A stretch of 58,188 bases of DNA. Source: Spirochaetaceae bacterium. GTDB lineage: Bacteria > Spirochaetota > Spirochaetia > Treponematales > Treponemataceae. Below, piece after piece: positions 35,893 to 42,624 of the stretch. Each line of letters starts with the position of its first letter. Within the stretch, counting starts at the first letter, position 1. A model generated the notes under the pieces. That model searched no databases, was not told the DNA's origin, and saw only the letters and a list, made by a program, of their open reading frames with translations. The DNA lies in the NCBI GenBank assembly GCA_017614995.1, contig JAGAAX010000018.1, forward strand, positions 1-58,188, in the 5' to 3' direction. A program made the position numbers and the translations under genes.

Positions 35893-38800
35893 TTATAAAT
35901 CTGCGTTAATATCCACAAGACTTGTGTTGCCGAGCGTATAAGAGCTTGCAAGACAGTCTGCCATTGCGTTTGCCGTATCAATTGCGGTAAAGCAGTCAAT
36001 GCCGTGCTCAACCGCAAGGCGTCTTAGCTTTACACTTTCAGCTTCAGGGTTTCTTCCTTTTGCAGAAGTGGAAATAACGTAATCGATTTTCTGGCTTTCA
36101 AGCAGCGTCATAACATTGTCATTGTGATTTTCATGCACTTTGGCAACGTGCGTAACCTGAATGCCTGAACGCTCAATAGTGCTTGCGTTGCCGCTTGTAG
36201 CATAAAGCTTAAACCCAAGGTCTGCATATTTCTTTGCGAGGGCAGGCAGTTCAGGCAGGTCGCTTTCACGTACACTGAAAAGCACAGCTTCAGGGCGTTC
36301 CTTATTTGTTCCCGGATTTATCATGTTCCAGCCGGCGGCGCACATGCCTTTATAGATTGCTTCTTCTGGCGTCGGCGCAATACCGAGAACTTCGCCGGTG
36401 GACTTCATTTCAGGGCCGAGGTGCGTGTCTACGTCCATGAGCTTTTCAAAGCTGAAAACCGGAACTTTGACCGCGTAATAAGACGGCCGCCTGTACAAGC
36501 CTGTGCCGTAGCCCATGTCGCGAACTTTTTCCCCGAGCATGGCGCGCGTTGCAAGCTCTACCATAGGAACGCCGGTAACTTTGCTTAGATAAGGCACAGT
36601 GCGGCTTGAACGCGGGTTTGCTTCAATTATGTTGAGCTGACCGTTGTAGAAAAGCCACTGAATGTTTACAAGCCCTTGCGTACCCAGCGCGAGCGCCATG
36701 TCTGTTGATTTTTTCACGATTTCGTCGGTCATTTCCTGCGTAAATTTGAACGGCGGATACACCGCAATTGAGTCGCCCGAATGAATGCCTGTTCTTTCAA
36801 TATGCTGCATAATTCCCGGAATAAGCACGTCTTTTCCGTCGCAGATGCAGTCAATTTCAAGTTCCAGACCTTCCATGTATTTGTCTATCAAAATCGGGTT
36901 TTCGATTTTCTGTGCAAGAATAATCTTCATGTATTCTTTGACGTCCGCGCTGTTTCGCGCAATAATCATATTCTGACCGCCGAGAACATAGCTTGGCCTT
37001 AAAAGCACCGGATAGCCGAGGCGTGCGGCAGCTTCAAGCGCTTCAACTTCTGTGAGAACCGTCATGCCTTTAGGGCGGTTTACATTGAGCCGCTCGCAAA
37101 GCTCTTCAAAGCGCTCGCGGTCTTCCGCAAGGTCAATTGAATCAGCAGAAGTTCCAAGAATCTTAATGCCCTGCTTGTCAAGGAATTTAGTCAGCTTGAT
37201 TGCAGTCTGACCGCCGAATGCAACAACTACACCGAGCGGCTTTTCAACAGCAAGCACGTTCATCACATCAACTGGAGTGAGCGGCTCAAAATAAAGCCTG
37301 TCCGCAGTGTCAAAGTCTGTAGAAACTGTTTCCGGGTTGTTATTGATAATTGCAACTTCATAGCCCAGCTTTTTCAAAGCCCATACGCACTGAACTGAAG
37401 CATAGTCAAATTCAATGCCCTGACCAATCCTGATTGGCCCCGAACCAAGAACAACGATTGTGCCCTTTGAGCTGCGCTTTCCGTTTGCAGAAAGTTCTTC
37501 TAAATAAGCGGCTGCCTCGTTTTCTCCGCTTGTGCATGAATAGAAATACGGTGTCTCTGCGTCAAACTCGCCGGCACATGTGTCTACCATTTTGAAAGAG
37601 CGCGGCGGATACGGCATAGACGCTGAAACAAGTTCAGCATGAGAGCCGCCATTGCCGTCACCCTGAACTAGTTTCAGGGTCTCTTTCTCCGCGTTCACAA
37701 TGTTTTCAAGCTTGCACAAAAACCATTCGTCAATCTTGGTAACTTCGTGAATCTCTTTTACGCTCATAAGACCGCGTTTTAAAGCCTGATAAATTGCAAA
37801 AATTCTCTGGTCTGTGCACTGACTTACCCGCTGTATTATTTTTTCATTTGATTCAGAGGCAAAAACCGCAAGATTCAAATCTTTTGTGCCAAGCTCTGCG
37901 CCACGCACAGCCTTGAGAATTGCTTCTTCAAAGTTCTGCCCGATTGCCATAACTTCGCCGGTTGCCTTCATCTGCGTGCCGAGCTTGCGGCTTGCATAGA
38001 CAAATTTTTCAAACGGAAACTTCGGCATTTTTACAACAACATAATCAAGAACAGGCTCAAAGCAGGCCTTTGTCTTTTTAGTAACAAAGTTCGGAATCTC
38101 GTCAAGATTGAAGCCGACGGCAATGAGCGCGGCAACTTTTGCAATAGGGTAGCCCGTAGCCTTTGAAGCCAGCGCCGAAGAACGCGAAACACGCGGGTTT
38201 ACTTCGATTACGGCATATTCAAAAGTTTCCGGGTTGAGCGCGAACTGGCAGTTGCAGCCGCCCTCAATTTCTAGCGCGCTGATGATGTTGAGTGCCGCCG
38301 AGCGCAGCATCTGATATTCTTTGTCCGCCAGTGTTACAGTCGGCGCAATTACAATTGAGTCTCCTGTGTGAACGCCGACCGGGTCAAAGTTTTCCATTGA
38401 ACAGACTGTAATTACATTTCCGGCGCCATCGCGCATTACCTCAAATTCAATTTCTTTCCAGCCTGAAATACATTTTTCAACAAGAATCTGGTGAATAGGC
38501 GAGCGGTGAAGCCCGTTGTGTGCAATTTCATCAAGCTCGCGCTCGTTGTTCACAATGCCGCCGCCTGTTCCGCCGAGTGTAAATGCCGGGCGTATAATTG
38601 CCGGAAATCCGATTTCGTTGTGCACAAAATCGGCGGCGTCTTGGTAAGTTGTTACAACCTTAGAAGGAATACAAGGCTCGCCAATCTGTTCCATTGTGTC
38701 TTTGAACATCTGGCGGTCTTCTGCCTTGTCAATTGTAAGCGGCCGCGCGCCAAGAAGCTGCACATTATGCTCTTTTAGAAAGCCTGACTTTGCAAGTTCC

Positions 38801-39099
38801 ATGCTCAAAGTTAAGCCGGTCTGTCCGCCGAGCGTTGAAAGCAGGGAATCAGGTTTTTCTTTTTCTATAATTCTCTGGAGGGTTTCGAGTGTGAGCGGTT
38901 CAAGGTAAATCTCGTCTGCCATTGAATGGTCGGTCATAAGCGTTGCCGGATTTGAGTTTACAAGACAAACTTCAAGGCCAAGCTGCTTTAAGGCTTTGCA
39001 TGCCTGATTTCCGGCGTAGTCAAATTCTGCTGCCTGACCAATTATAATTGGCCCAGAACCGATAATCATTACTTTGTGGATATTTTCGTTTAGTGGCAT
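35893..39099 (-). CDS. carB: Carbamoyl-phosphate synthase large chain
   Basis: Makes carbamoyl phosphate for arginine and pyrimidine synthesis together with CarA; 1068 residues. Two homologous ATP-grasp halves: GSGPIIIGQAAEFDYAG at the N-terminus and GSGPIRIGQGIEFDYA in the second half, plus VNPRVSRSSALASKATGYPIA and ANPRSSRTVPYLSKVTGVP. The C-terminal MGS allosteric domain starts near 925. Odd: residues about 470-496, in the oligomerisation region between the halves, are coded by a dispersed palindromic repeat (translation contains SHAELVSASMPYP) in place of the longer helical segment of other CarB proteins. Start ATG at 39099 with TTGGAG upstream. Confidence 0.95.
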   Translation of the reverse strand: MPLNENIHKVMIIGSGPIIIGQAAEFDYAGNQACKALKQLGLEVCLVNSNPATLMTDHSMADEIYLEPLTLETLQRIIEKEKPDSLLSTLGGQTGLTLSMELAKSGFLKEHNVQLLGARPLTIDKAEDRQMFKDTMEQIGEPCIPSKVVTTYQDAADFVHNEIGFPAIIRPAFTLGGTGGGIVNNERELDEIAHNGLHRSPIHQILVEKCISGWKEIEFEVMRDGAGNVITVCSMENFDPVGVHTGDSIVIAPTVTLADKEYQMLRSAALNIISALEIEGGCNCQFALNPETFEYAVIEVNPRVSRSSALASKATGYPIAKVAALIAVGFNLDEIPNFVTKKTKACFEPVLDYVVVKMPKFPFEKFVYASRKLGTQMKATGEVMAIGQNFEEAILKAVRGAELGTKDLNLAVFASESNEKIIQRVSQCTDQRIFAIYQALKRGLMSVKEIHEVTKIDEWFLCKLENIVNAEKETLKLVQGDGNGGSHAELVSASMPYPPRSFKMVDTCAGEFDAETPYFYSCTSGENEAAAYLEELSANGKRSSKGTIVVLGSGPIRIGQGIEFDYASVQCVWALKKLGYEVAIINNNPETVSTDFDTADRLYFEPLTPVDVMNVLAVEKPLGVVVAFGGQTAIKLTKFLDKQGIKILGTSADSIDLAEDRERFEELCERLNVNRPKGMTVLTEVEALEAAARLGYPVLLRPSYVLGGQNMIIARNSADVKEYMKIILAQKIENPILIDKYMEGLELEIDCICDGKDVLIPGIMQHIERTGIHSGDSIAVYPPFKFTQEMTDEIVKKSTDMALALGTQGLVNIQWLFYNGQLNIIEANPRSSRTVPYLSKVTGVPMVELATRAMLGEKVRDMGYGTGLYRRPSYYAVKVPVFSFEKLMDVDTHLGPEMKSTGEVLGIAPTPEEAIYKGMCAAGWNMINPGTNKERPEAVLFSVRESDLPELPALAKKYADLGFKLYATSGNASTIERSGIQVTHVAKVHENHNDNVMTLLESQKIDYVISTSAKGRNPEAESVKLRRLAVEHGIDCFTAIDTANAMADCLASSYTLGNTSLVDINADL
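37621..37690. repeat. Palindromic repeats inside carB
   Basis: Two adjacent units: GCTGAAACAAGTTCAGC (37621-37637) and CCCTGAACTAGTTTCAGGG (37662-37680). They are in frame within carB and match the GCTGAACTTGTTTCAGC cores of intergenic repeats near 17625 and 43827. Confidence 0.8.
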
Positions 39100-39222: not shown

Positions 39223-41339
39223 TTACTCCACAACAGTCATTGACTGAATTATTGCGTCCTGACCCATTAAGAATAAGGCGTTTGAGTTTTCGATTATCTT
39301 TGCGGTTTCTGAATCTATTTCAACAGTAAATGTTGTTTTGCTTGGTATAACATTACCGTCTAACAGTCTTCCGCCTTTAATCTTTTTTGCTGTTCCAGGT
39401 ATTTTGTGCCACTGGAAATTTTCATCTTCCCAAGTTATTTGAATCGTTGGAGATGAGCCTGTTTTCTTTATAACGAATTCAAGTTTATAATTTTCTGGAA
39501 CAGAACGCAAAAAAATGTCGGAGTTTATTCTATAATTTTCGCCCCATTTCTTTGTGTCAAACGGTTCATTTATAAGATTTTTGCCGACTATGCTTTCAAC
39601 CTTTGTTTCATTGTTCTTAAGGAATTCCTCGCTCAAAGGATATTCTTTGCCTTGCGCTCCGTAGAAAACCGTATCAAAGTATTCAGACTTTTCATTCCAT
39701 TTTATGTTCCAAGGGTCAAAGTCATGAGAGTTATTTTGATAATCATCGGCAGGATGCAGGGTTATGGCACATGAGCGTCCGTCTTTTGCCACTTCTGACA
39801 TAAAATCTTTCATACAGTTGATCCTTTCCATAACCGGAATGCCCAAAGGCCCTCCGCAGACTTCTGAAAGATAAACAGGAACATGCTTTTTGAAATACGT
39901 TTTATCCAGCGCATCAAACATGGCGTTTATTTCTTTTCTAACGCCTTCCGTATAAAATATACTGCCGAATCCTCCGGGGGCGGTAGCTAGTGTAAAGCCC
40001 ATCGGAAGCTTCTGTGCGGTAGGAATCAATCTGTCTTTTGTTTTGTCCGTGGGCATTTTAAAAAGAGAGTTTGTTATACTCTTCCACTTTCCGCCAATCC
40101 CTTCAACCATGATAAAGCGCTTTGCGTTGTTTCCGCCTGTGGAACGGATTGTGTCAACGATTATCTGGTTGTACTCATTCATAATGGCATAGTCTTTTTT
40201 GCAGACAGCGCAGTCGCTTATTGGATCCCATGCATGTTCATGAAAAATATGTGTCGGATTATTTATAGTCTCAAAAATCAAACGCTCGTCGTAAGAATTG
40301 TTAAAGGCCGTCGCATATTGCTTCCAAATTGCCTTTAGCAGCGCCTCTGTAGTTTTCTTATAATCTTCGCTTACGCTCAAGGCTTCAAAATGGACGCTCT
40401 CTTTTACTTTTTTTTGGAAAGTTTCATTTAGTTCCATAAATTCAGGAACAGACCCGCAGATAATAACATACATATCTTCTTCGATTATCCAGTCAACAAC
40501 TTCTTTTAATGCCTTAATATAGCGCGGATCAATAGTGTAGTTTTCATCGAGAAGATGCCCTCCGTTCGGACTTGTTTGAAGTCGGATTGTCTTAAATCCT
40601 TTTTCTTTTATAAAATGAATTATTTCTTTAGAAGGCTTTTTAAATCCCCAGAAATGAAAACAGTCCATCCCATAATCAAGCGAATCTTCACAAGTTGCAA
40701 ACGACTGATATTGAAAACCTACTCCAAGATTTTTAACATAATCCCACGCGCTTATTTTGTCGTCAAACTTTCCGCTTGTTGCCTTATCTATTACAGGCGG
40801 CTCGTTGCTTGCATAAACATCAGTTAATTTAGGATTATCTACTTTTTCAAAAGTAACAGACTCTATCACAAACTGCTCATAAGGAACATTCCATGTGCCT
40901 GCTGCATTAATGCCTTTCAATCTTCGCTGGTTGCTTTTAAGAGGAATAATCATTTCATTAAGATATGACGGACAATATGTTGATTTGTCATAATTCCAAT
41001 CCAGCGTATTATCATCATAATCCAGGGTAAAATGAAAGCCGTAATCGCCAATAACCTTGTACTTAACGCGCGCAATGTTGTAACTGCTTATATCAAGATT
41101 ATTGAGCCAAAGATAAATACCCTTGCTGCCGCCATATTGCAGCTTGTCATTGGCTGTAACCGTTACTGTTTTAGTTGTCTTGTCAAAAGCCGCCGTTTTG
41201 TCATCATTCACAGCAGGGAATTTGTTCAAGTCAACTTCGTATACATTCTGTGCAAAGGCAGAAATTGAAGCAATAAAAAGAAGGGCTGCAATTAATAAAA
41301 GCCTTTTACCCCCCCCATTCTATACATAGTAATTTCCAT
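39223..41339 (-). CDS. GH5-like secreted glycosidase, frameshifted at poly-G tract
   Basis: A secreted protein with a glycoside hydrolase family 5-like barrel (residues ~155-530, counted from the TTG at 41229) between beta-sandwich, carbohydrate-binding-like regions (about 1-140 and 560-668). A ribosome site GGAGG (41349-41345) and ATG (41339) start a frame that meets eight G (41316-41309) and then stops. One more G would join it to a perfect signal peptide (KRLLLIAALLFIASISAFAQ) and a 705-residue protein. In the frame as given, an upstream TAG blocks any ATG start. The nucleophile position looks kept (VYLSEVCGG, Glu456), but the usual Asn-Glu-Pro reads Asn-Asn-Pro (323-325) and the usual His pair after the fourth strand is missing, so activity is doubtful. 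Confidence 0.75.
41309..41316 (-). repeat. Eight-G homopolymer in GH5-like gene
   Basis: Eight C on the plus strand, eight G in the sense direction, overlapping an in-frame ATG after the real start. The tract length sets the reading frame of the signal peptide: nine or six G would give an open gene, eight closes it. Confidence 0.85.
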
Positions 41340-41412
41340 AGATACCTCCATTTGTACCATAAACATGAAAATTATAGCATGGAGTTTTTGGAGTTGTCAA
41401 AAAAGGCTGTGC

Positions 41413-42552
41413 TTAAAGCATTGAGAGAAACTCGTCGAACAAAAAGTTTGTGTCGTGAGGGCCGCCGCAGGCTTCGGGGTGAAACTGCACACTGAATGCC
41501 GGAATGTCGTTGTAGCGTACGCCTTCGCAAGTGTTGTCGTTCACGTTGAAAAAGCTCATTGTGGCAAAAGAGGGCAGTGTGTCTGCTTCAACAGCATAGC
41601 CGTGGTTCTGGCTTGTAATGTAGACGCGGTTTGTAGCTGTGTCTTTTACCGGGTGGTTGCCGCCGCGGTGTCCGTACTTGAGCTTGCTGGTTTTTGCACC
41701 TCTTGCAAGCGCAAGCATCTGGTGTCCAAGGCAGATGCCAAAAACCGGCAGTTTGCCAAAGTCGCAGATTTTGCGGATTTCTTCTATTATTTGGGTATTA
41801 TCAGCCGGGTCGCCGGGGCCGTTAGAAAGCATCAGACCGTCTGGCTTAAGGGCAAGAATCTGGTCTGCGCTTGTGCCGCAAGAAACAACTGTTACCTTGC
41901 AGCCGCGCTTTTCAAGCTCACGCTGAATATTTGCTTTTGCACCAAAATCCCATAGAACAATGTGATGGGTGACATTTCCGTTTGTGTCATTGTCCGGCTT
42001 GACCGGACAATCTGCAACCGGCTGTGATGTGCAGATTCCCCCATCAAGTGGGGGAATGACAGTATTTGACTGTACGCTTTCTACAGCCTGCACTATTTTG
42101 TAGTCTTTGATTTCTTTTAGAAGAGCGTCGGTAACGTCGGGGCATTTTTCTTCGCCGCTGATGATCATTCCGTTCATAACGCCGGATTCGCGGAGTTTTT
42201 TGGTGAGCGCGCGTGTGTCAATGCCGCAGATTCCGATGATTCCCTGTGTTTTTAGAAAATCGTTCAGTATACCGCCGCATCTAAAGTTAGAAGGCTCGTT
42301 GCAAAGCTCGCGCACAACGTAGCCGCGCACGTGGCATTTGCGGCTTTCAAAATCTTGGGGAATAACACCGTAGTTTCCGATGAGCGGAAAAGTTTGTGTT
42401 ACAATCTGGCCGAAATAGCTTGGGTCGGTGAGCGTTTCAAGATAGCCGGTCATTCCGGTTGTAAAAACTGTTTCACCGGTTGTTCTGCCGGTTTTTCCGA
42501 TAGAAGTTCCTTCAAAAATTGTGCCGTCTGCAAGAATCAGCCATGCTTTCAT
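41413..42552 (-). CDS. carA: Carbamoyl-phosphate synthase small chain
   Basis: The glutamine amidotransferase subunit supplying ammonia to CarB; 379 residues. N-terminal domain: ADGTIFEGTSIG, GMTGYLETLTDPSYFGQIV, and GIDTRALTKKLRE. C-terminal class I GATase domain: LSNGPGDPAD, nucleophile in VFGICLGHQML, and SVQFHPEACGGPHD. Start at 42552, set by MKAWLILADG and the GGAG upstream; an extra 12 in-frame codons overlap the leader terminator. Odd: about residues 164-189, in the linker before the GATase domain, are coded by a 77-bp palindromic repeat. carA is separated from carB by the GH5-like gene. Confidence 0.95.
   Translation of the reverse strand: MKAWLILADGTIFEGTSIGKTGRTTGETVFTTGMTGYLETLTDPSYFGQIVTQTFPLIGNYGVIPQDFESRKCHVRGYVVRELCNEPSNFRCGGILNDFLKTQGIIGICGIDTRALTKKLRESGVMNGMIISGEEKCPDVTDALLKEIKDYKIVQAVESVQSNTVIPPLDGGICTSQPVADCPVKPDNDTNGNVTHHIVLWDFGAKANIQRELEKRGCKVTVVSCGTSADQILALKPDGLMLSNGPGDPADNTQIIEEIRKICDFGKLPVFGICLGHQMLALARGAKTSKLKYGHRGGNHPVKDTATNRVYITSQNHGYAVEADTLPSFATMSFFNVNDNTCEGVRYNDIPAFSVQFHPEACGGPHDTNFLFDEFLSML
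41985..42061. repeat. Palindromic repeat inside carA
   Basis: 77 bp bounded by TGTCATT and AATGACA, with hairpins TTGTCCGG..CCGGACAA and TTCCCCCA..TGGGGGAA. The same boundary bases and layout occur in the intergenic copies at 5639 and 35216. It is read in frame as part of carA. Confidence 0.85.
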
Positions 42553-42566
42553 GATTACGTTTACTC

Positions 42567-42624
42567 CAAAAAAAAGACGCTCATTCAATCAGAGGACACT
42601 AAGTCATCAAATTAAATGAACGCC
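42567..42624 (-). terminator. carA leader terminator (attenuator)
   Basis: GGCGTTCATTT (42624-42614) pairs with GAATGAGCGTC and is followed by nine T, then GGAG of the ribosome site. The first 17 bases GAACAAAGGCGTTCATT are identical to the pyrG leader. Confidence 0.85.

Follow-up and report, generated by a model that had tools for sequence, protein, structure and literature searches.

The locus and the start region of the GH5 gene

The window, by which is meant the whole stretch of 58,188 nt of DNA that was analysed, belongs to a 3.05 Mb draft genome in 64 contigs, which may itself be a metagenome assembly and whose host is a gut or rumen Treponema relative. Between the intact genes carA and carB lies, on the minus strand, a gene for a predicted secreted protein of the GH5 family with an uninterrupted run of eight G near its start. 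The features are as follows, those of the start region having been read from the sequence:

35893-39099: carB, intact, neighbour of the GH5 gene
39226-41308, minus strand: frame of the predicted secreted GH5-family protein, with signal peptide, N-terminal beta-sandwich, GH5 barrel and C-terminal beta-sandwich (Pfam, PDB, predicted model)
39862-39864, minus strand: GAA (Glu), predicted GH5 nucleophile, conserved
40258-40260, minus strand: AAT, encoding Asn where GH5 has its acid/base residue (NNP for NEP)
41292-41294, minus strand: TAA closing the leader frame in the present (OFF) register
41309-41316, minus strand: uninterrupted poly-G of 8 G, the proposed switch
41317-41339, minus strand: module leader ATGGAAATTACTATGTATAGAAT with in-frame ATGs at 41339, 41327 and 41318
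41345-41349, minus strand: Shine-Dalgarno sequence GGAGG, 5 nt 5' of the ATG
41371-41400, minus strand: predicted sigma70-type promoter (TTGACA 41400-41395, 18-nt spacer, TATAAT 41376-41371)
41413-42588: carA, intact, neighbour of the GH5 gene

Both hexamers of the predicted promoter are perfect matches and are located just 5' of the start region; they would provide the GH5 gene, between carA and carB, with a promoter of its own. The spacer of this promoter contains no G run, the poly-G being located 3' of the start codon. A role of the tract itself as promoter spacer, as in the relative L023 (see below), was considered and rejected, because a suitably spaced -35 is lacking and another promoter is located upstream.

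The first start codon (ATG, 41339-41337) is followed by seven further codons and then by the tract, whose first base is the G of the abutting ATG at 41318. In the present register the frame opened at 41339 ends after 15 codons at the TAA 41294-41292. The long frame, which carries KRLLLIAALLFIASISAFAQ, extends over 698 open codons as far as 39226, with its stop at 39225-39223; it is shut on the upstream side by the TAG 41322-41320, and in this register there is no ATG, GTG or TTG in it ahead of the signal peptide. Judged from its reading frames, the gene is OFF as sequenced (8 G), and the product from 41339 would have 705 residues once the frame is restored. The earlier note had seen here eight G that put a GH5-like frame out of register with a GGAGG and ATG, one extra G that would join the start at 41339 to the signal peptide and a 705-residue product, a TAG at 41322 that blocks an upstream ATG, and no further lesion in the gene; coordinates and reading frames agree with it on each of these points.

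The GH5 protein encoded after the tract

The assignment to GH5 is based on a match to PF00150 (E = 1.3e-30), on 4nf7 as the best match in a PDB sequence search (E = 2e-31) and on a Foldseek comparison of the predicted model with the GH5 fold (probability 1.00). The model, which was built with nine sequences and has a mean pLDDT of 74, consists of a beta-sandwich, a barrel and a second beta-sandwich, and its barrel resembles that of GH5_4-type endoglucanases. With Cel5C of Butyrivibrio proteoclasticus (4nf7) and the GH5_4 enzymes, which are rumen relatives, the window protein shares the GH5 barrel and the nucleophile Glu, but it differs from them in having Asn in place of the acid/base Glu and in its additional N- and C-terminal beta-sandwich domains.

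Only one of the two catalytic Glu of GH5 is thus present: the nucleophile is kept and the acid/base residue is Asn. The motif NNP is found in the window protein and in the 84% identical L018, and NEP in most other homologues. The Asn makes the activity of the window protein doubtful. The protein may not be an active enzyme, and it is possible that it and L018 are non-catalytic, glycan-binding GH5 proteins. Of the GH5-like enzyme gene that the earlier note had named, the GH5 match therefore stands, whereas the label enzyme is uncertain owing to the Asn, which the paralogues do not have at this position.

Homologues in related genomes

Homologues of the window gene are present in 18 of the 274 genomes of the family, and the register could be tabulated for the 31 GH5 family members whose 5' end is readable. 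In 11 of the 31 the leader contains a G8 or G9 without interruption, 5 of these members being ON and 6 OFF, whereas all 19 members with an interrupted, short or absent tract are ON (Fisher p = 7.8e-4). The difference between the two groups is the strongest argument for a switch, since a wrong choice of start codon, errors or decay would be expected to put members with a broken-up tract out of frame as well, and 0 of 19 are.

The length of the tract also differs between close relatives. For example, L021 and L022, which are colinear orthologues from sister species and 93% identical over 5.2 kb, have no mismatch in the 36 nt of the flanks, and yet the tract has 8 G (ON) in one and 9 G (OFF) in the other. 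Among pairs of near-identical cassettes (at most 4 mismatches per 36 nt) tract length is unequal in 24 of 39, these comparisons being between species rather than between strains.

These data bear on the most obvious objection, namely that the true tract has 9 G, that the gene is simply ON and that the count of eight G is an assembly or sequencing error. Homopolymers are error-prone and one more G indeed restores the frame, but independent assemblies share the architecture with the three registers near-equally frequent (see below), errors of frame at the same place number 0 of 19 in members with an interrupted tract, and the enrichment of G8 behind start codons is not what errors would produce. 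One wrong base at the window site would, moreover, leave the switch standing. We consider an error as the explanation very improbable.

A point against the switch is that L018, the closest relative of the window gene (84% identical), no longer has the tract, its frame being fixed ON. The dN/dS ratio between the two is 0.225 over 555 codons, and other intact pairs of the family have ratios of 0.14-0.32, OFF and ON alike; being OFF has not led to a relaxation of the frame. By this measure the OFF window gene is under purifying selection.

In one of the 31 members (L023, from another species) a G9 is located between the -35 and the -10 of a TTGACA-18-TATAAT promoter (L023:2940-2948), which is the T. 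pallidum type of promoter poly-G, and in L091 an interrupted version of this promoter tract is found (GGGGGTAGG). The GH5 family of the window gene has in this sense two levels of switching, a leader tract and the L023 promoter tract. It should also be mentioned that the upstream flanks of L018 (1414-2867) and L026 (1-1454), which come from two species, are 98% identical and the GH5 genes behind them 67%; the gene body seems to have been swapped at this locus. A scan of viral contigs for the exact module with 7 G yielded no match, and hence no independent allele of the window species.

Copies of the module in the window's own genome

Pattern searches revealed 17 runs of at least eight G in the genome as compared to 1.5-6 expected under Markov models of orders 1-4 fitted to the window; within the window itself there is a single run of 8 and no run of 7. 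Of these 17 runs, seven are parts of the same module of Shine-Dalgarno sequence, ATG, leader and poly-G (AGGAGG...ATGAAAGATACTATGTATAGAATG(n) or close variants), and all seven stand before GH5 genes, which are of two types. Two modules are ON and five OFF; four of the latter are followed by long intact frames, and the frame of the fifth (L007) is cut by the contig end. The 30 nt 5' of the tract are identical among L007, L010 and L011 (30/30), similarity beyond them being that of chance; the agreement is 23/30 between these three and the window and 29/30 with a fourth locus. On the 3' side of the tract L010 differs from L007 and L011, which indicates that the module is more conserved than what stands behind it.

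It could be argued that the window gene is a pseudogene, an OFF copy decaying after a frameshift. Its frame is closed, and a paralogue (L010/L043, contig C47) has two further stops in its body and is probably a real pseudogene. This paralogue is, however, in the ON register, so OFF state and decay are uncoupled; five of seven module copies being OFF, with a long intact frame behind four of the five, likewise does not fit decay, nor do 698 open codons without any other lesion and a dN/dS of 0.225, in which selection is seen. Decay is thus a highly unlikely explanation. Loss of mismatch repair as the cause of slippage was ruled out by the presence of MutS-family genes in the genome, and high slippage rates are therefore not given by such a loss.

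Three further observations were made in the same genome. First, a second family, of long lipoproteins (L003, L012, L013, L014 and L016; 543-833 codons after the tract), has a G8 or G9 directly 3' of the lipobox Cys (ITSC-GGGG); four of these loci are in frame with 8 G, and the 9 G of L012 put its frame out of register. Second, in L001 (contig C3) a G10 ends another signal peptide, and the leader and the downstream frame of 306 codons are out of register. Third, an inverted-repeat element, ATTCCGAACTTGTTTCGGAAT, is repeated about 35 bp 5' of the modules of L004 and L010 and in part at L008.

The wider set in the family

A search for the pattern Shine-Dalgarno-ATG-G8 gave matches in 98 of the 274 genomes of the family. 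In the genera g1 and g17 there were 76 matches versus 17 in the reversed control (p = 4e-10), and in the other genera of the family there was no excess (18 versus 20), pattern and control having both been counted in the direction in which no site scores more than once. From the controls a minority of the matches is by chance. From g1 and g17, 70 sites were fetched, L001 included, of which 66, the majority from Treponema species within this family, have a hydrophobic segment 3' of the tract and 50 of these 66 a lipobox. Tract length in the 66 ranges from 8 to 14 G, and the registers are ON in 23, +2 in 23 and +1 in 20 (chi-square p = 0.87 against equal thirds), where it should be noted that most of the genomes compared are metagenome assemblies, in which the homopolymer consensus could err at single sites. 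The targets include GH5, InlB-type and List_Bact repeats, Big_2, FGE-sulfatase, Lcl_C and BspA-type LRR.

The even registers have a bearing on two other explanations of the tract. In the first, programmed frameshifting or transcriptional slippage would yield a constant minor product from an OFF allele, and length would not be a switch. Slippage on long G runs is possible during transcription as well as translation, and an OFF allele may plausibly leak to some extent. But a programmed event needs a fixed register, against which three equally frequent registers argue, and the lengths differ between near-identical cassettes; this explanation is quite improbable. In the second, the run would merely encode a glycine spacer needed by the leader peptide, for ON frames read GGG ahead of the basic n-region and locked-ON members often retain one or two Gly. 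Two thirds of the sites are, however, out of frame, which refutes the spacer as a full account, and many locked-ON members are without any Gly there. GGG is also rare among the Gly codons elsewhere in the gene: in the body, 31 of the 40 are GGC or GGA, so that a pure GGG run is not codon bias. The spacer is extremely unlikely to be the explanation.

Some side observations concern these sites. Bases resembling GTATA, GTACA, TATAC or TATAG occur in various codon frames in the 12 nt before the tract, with a loose match at 52 of the 70 sites. In one genome a reverse transcriptase domain (G128:C20:179632-180405) is encoded about 5 kb from two lipoprotein modules (185552 and 187237), and the FGE-sulfatase and Lcl_C folds among the targets recall DGR target proteins; a presence check found reverse transcriptases in some relatives and none in the window genome.

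The proposed switch

We propose that the poly-G run is a contingency switch, that is, that the gene undergoes translational phase variation by slippage, and give this a probability of about 0.87. The homopolymer is uninterrupted and lies in the first part of the coding region, after the ATG and before the signal peptide; a change by one base toggles between the full frame and an early stop, with alleles of both kinds among the homologues; its length varies between close relatives with conserved flanks (L021/L022); and the OFF gene is intact and, by its dN/dS of 0.225, under purifying selection. The phase-variable layout suggested in the earlier note is supported by each of the tests made: the tract is kept in homologues in mixed registers and differs in length between near-identical orthologues, interrupted tracts are always in frame, and the relatives have neither 9 G throughout nor a degraded downstream frame, either of which would have spoken against it. 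Most of that interpretation was correct, and the pattern extends further than its author saw.

The gene would be transcribed from its own promoter. At a fitting tract length the ribosome would read MEITMYRMGGG into the signal peptide, resulting in a secreted three-domain protein; in the other two registers it would meet a stop after a few codons, the signal peptide then being without a preceding start codon. The switch would be part of a small reusable start module (Shine-Dalgarno sequence, ATG, about seven codons and G8 or more), and equivalent modules ahead of many lipoproteins and secreted proteins of related gut and rumen Treponema would leave each cell with a random subset of them. Start codons and expression are predicted in all this, and we infer that slippage is the cause, that expression really goes ON and OFF, that the protein is secreted and that there is a benefit. 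More tentatively, and at somewhat less than even odds, the module may be a portable unit of about 45 bp (Shine-Dalgarno sequence, ATG, leader and poly-G) that is copied by recombination before unrelated genes for exported proteins, giving random combinations of glycan-active and adhesin-like proteins, a large phase-variable surface repertoire of commensals whose targets would be plant glycans, competitors or phage and not host immunity.

Homopolymer phase variation has mostly been studied as immune evasion of pathogens, and the same layout stands here before secreted GH5 proteins and dozens of lipoproteins of treponemes that are mostly known from assemblies. If the proposal is correct, fibre-degrading and surface functions are bet-hedged in gut and rumen treponemes, standard gene calling misses or truncates roughly two thirds of the module genes per assembly, and switching can be measured directly from existing metagenome reads.

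Comparison with known systems

In the opa genes of Neisseria, a single adhesin family, a pentamer repeat lies in the region coding for the signal peptide, and the paralogues switch independently. The modules described here are similar in that several paralogues have a repeat where their signal peptide is encoded, and differ in that the repeat is a mononucleotide tract and stands before several unrelated protein families.

In T. pallidum, poly-G phase variation is known for tprL, tprE/G/J and tp0126, with tract lengths that are reported to vary within isolates; the tracts studied are in promoters and act on transcription (PMC7864442). Common to both systems are a poly-G of about 7-11, a treponeme as host and a position at the 5' end of genes whose products are exported. 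The window tract, in contrast, separates the start codon from the signal peptide and affects the reading frame, the promoter form being found here only in L023, and the genes concerned encode GH5 proteins and lipoproteins in species of commensal type. The parallel with T. pallidum drawn in the earlier note hence applies to the kind of switch and not to its place, which is a promoter there and a translated leader here.

Translational contingency loci with poly-G or poly-C are known from Neisseria (hmbR, hpuAB) and from the poly-G genes of Campylobacter jejuni (PMC3786947, PMC4965091). As in the window, a G/C homopolymer inside the frame has three registers and a one-base ON/OFF change. Unlike in these loci, the tract lies here within a near-identical short module that is repeated before different genes, and the targets include GH5 proteins.

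A homopolymer count has been published for T. ruminis (PMC8049484), and nothing was found on the start module in the open-access literature, absence from which is no proof of novelty. The mechanism itself is already known, from the promoters of T. pallidum (PMC7864442) and from the frame tracts of Neisseria and Campylobacter (PMC3786947, PMC4965091); what seems to be new, within the open-access literature, is a shared switch-bearing start module before many secreted proteins, including GH5, of gut and rumen Treponema.
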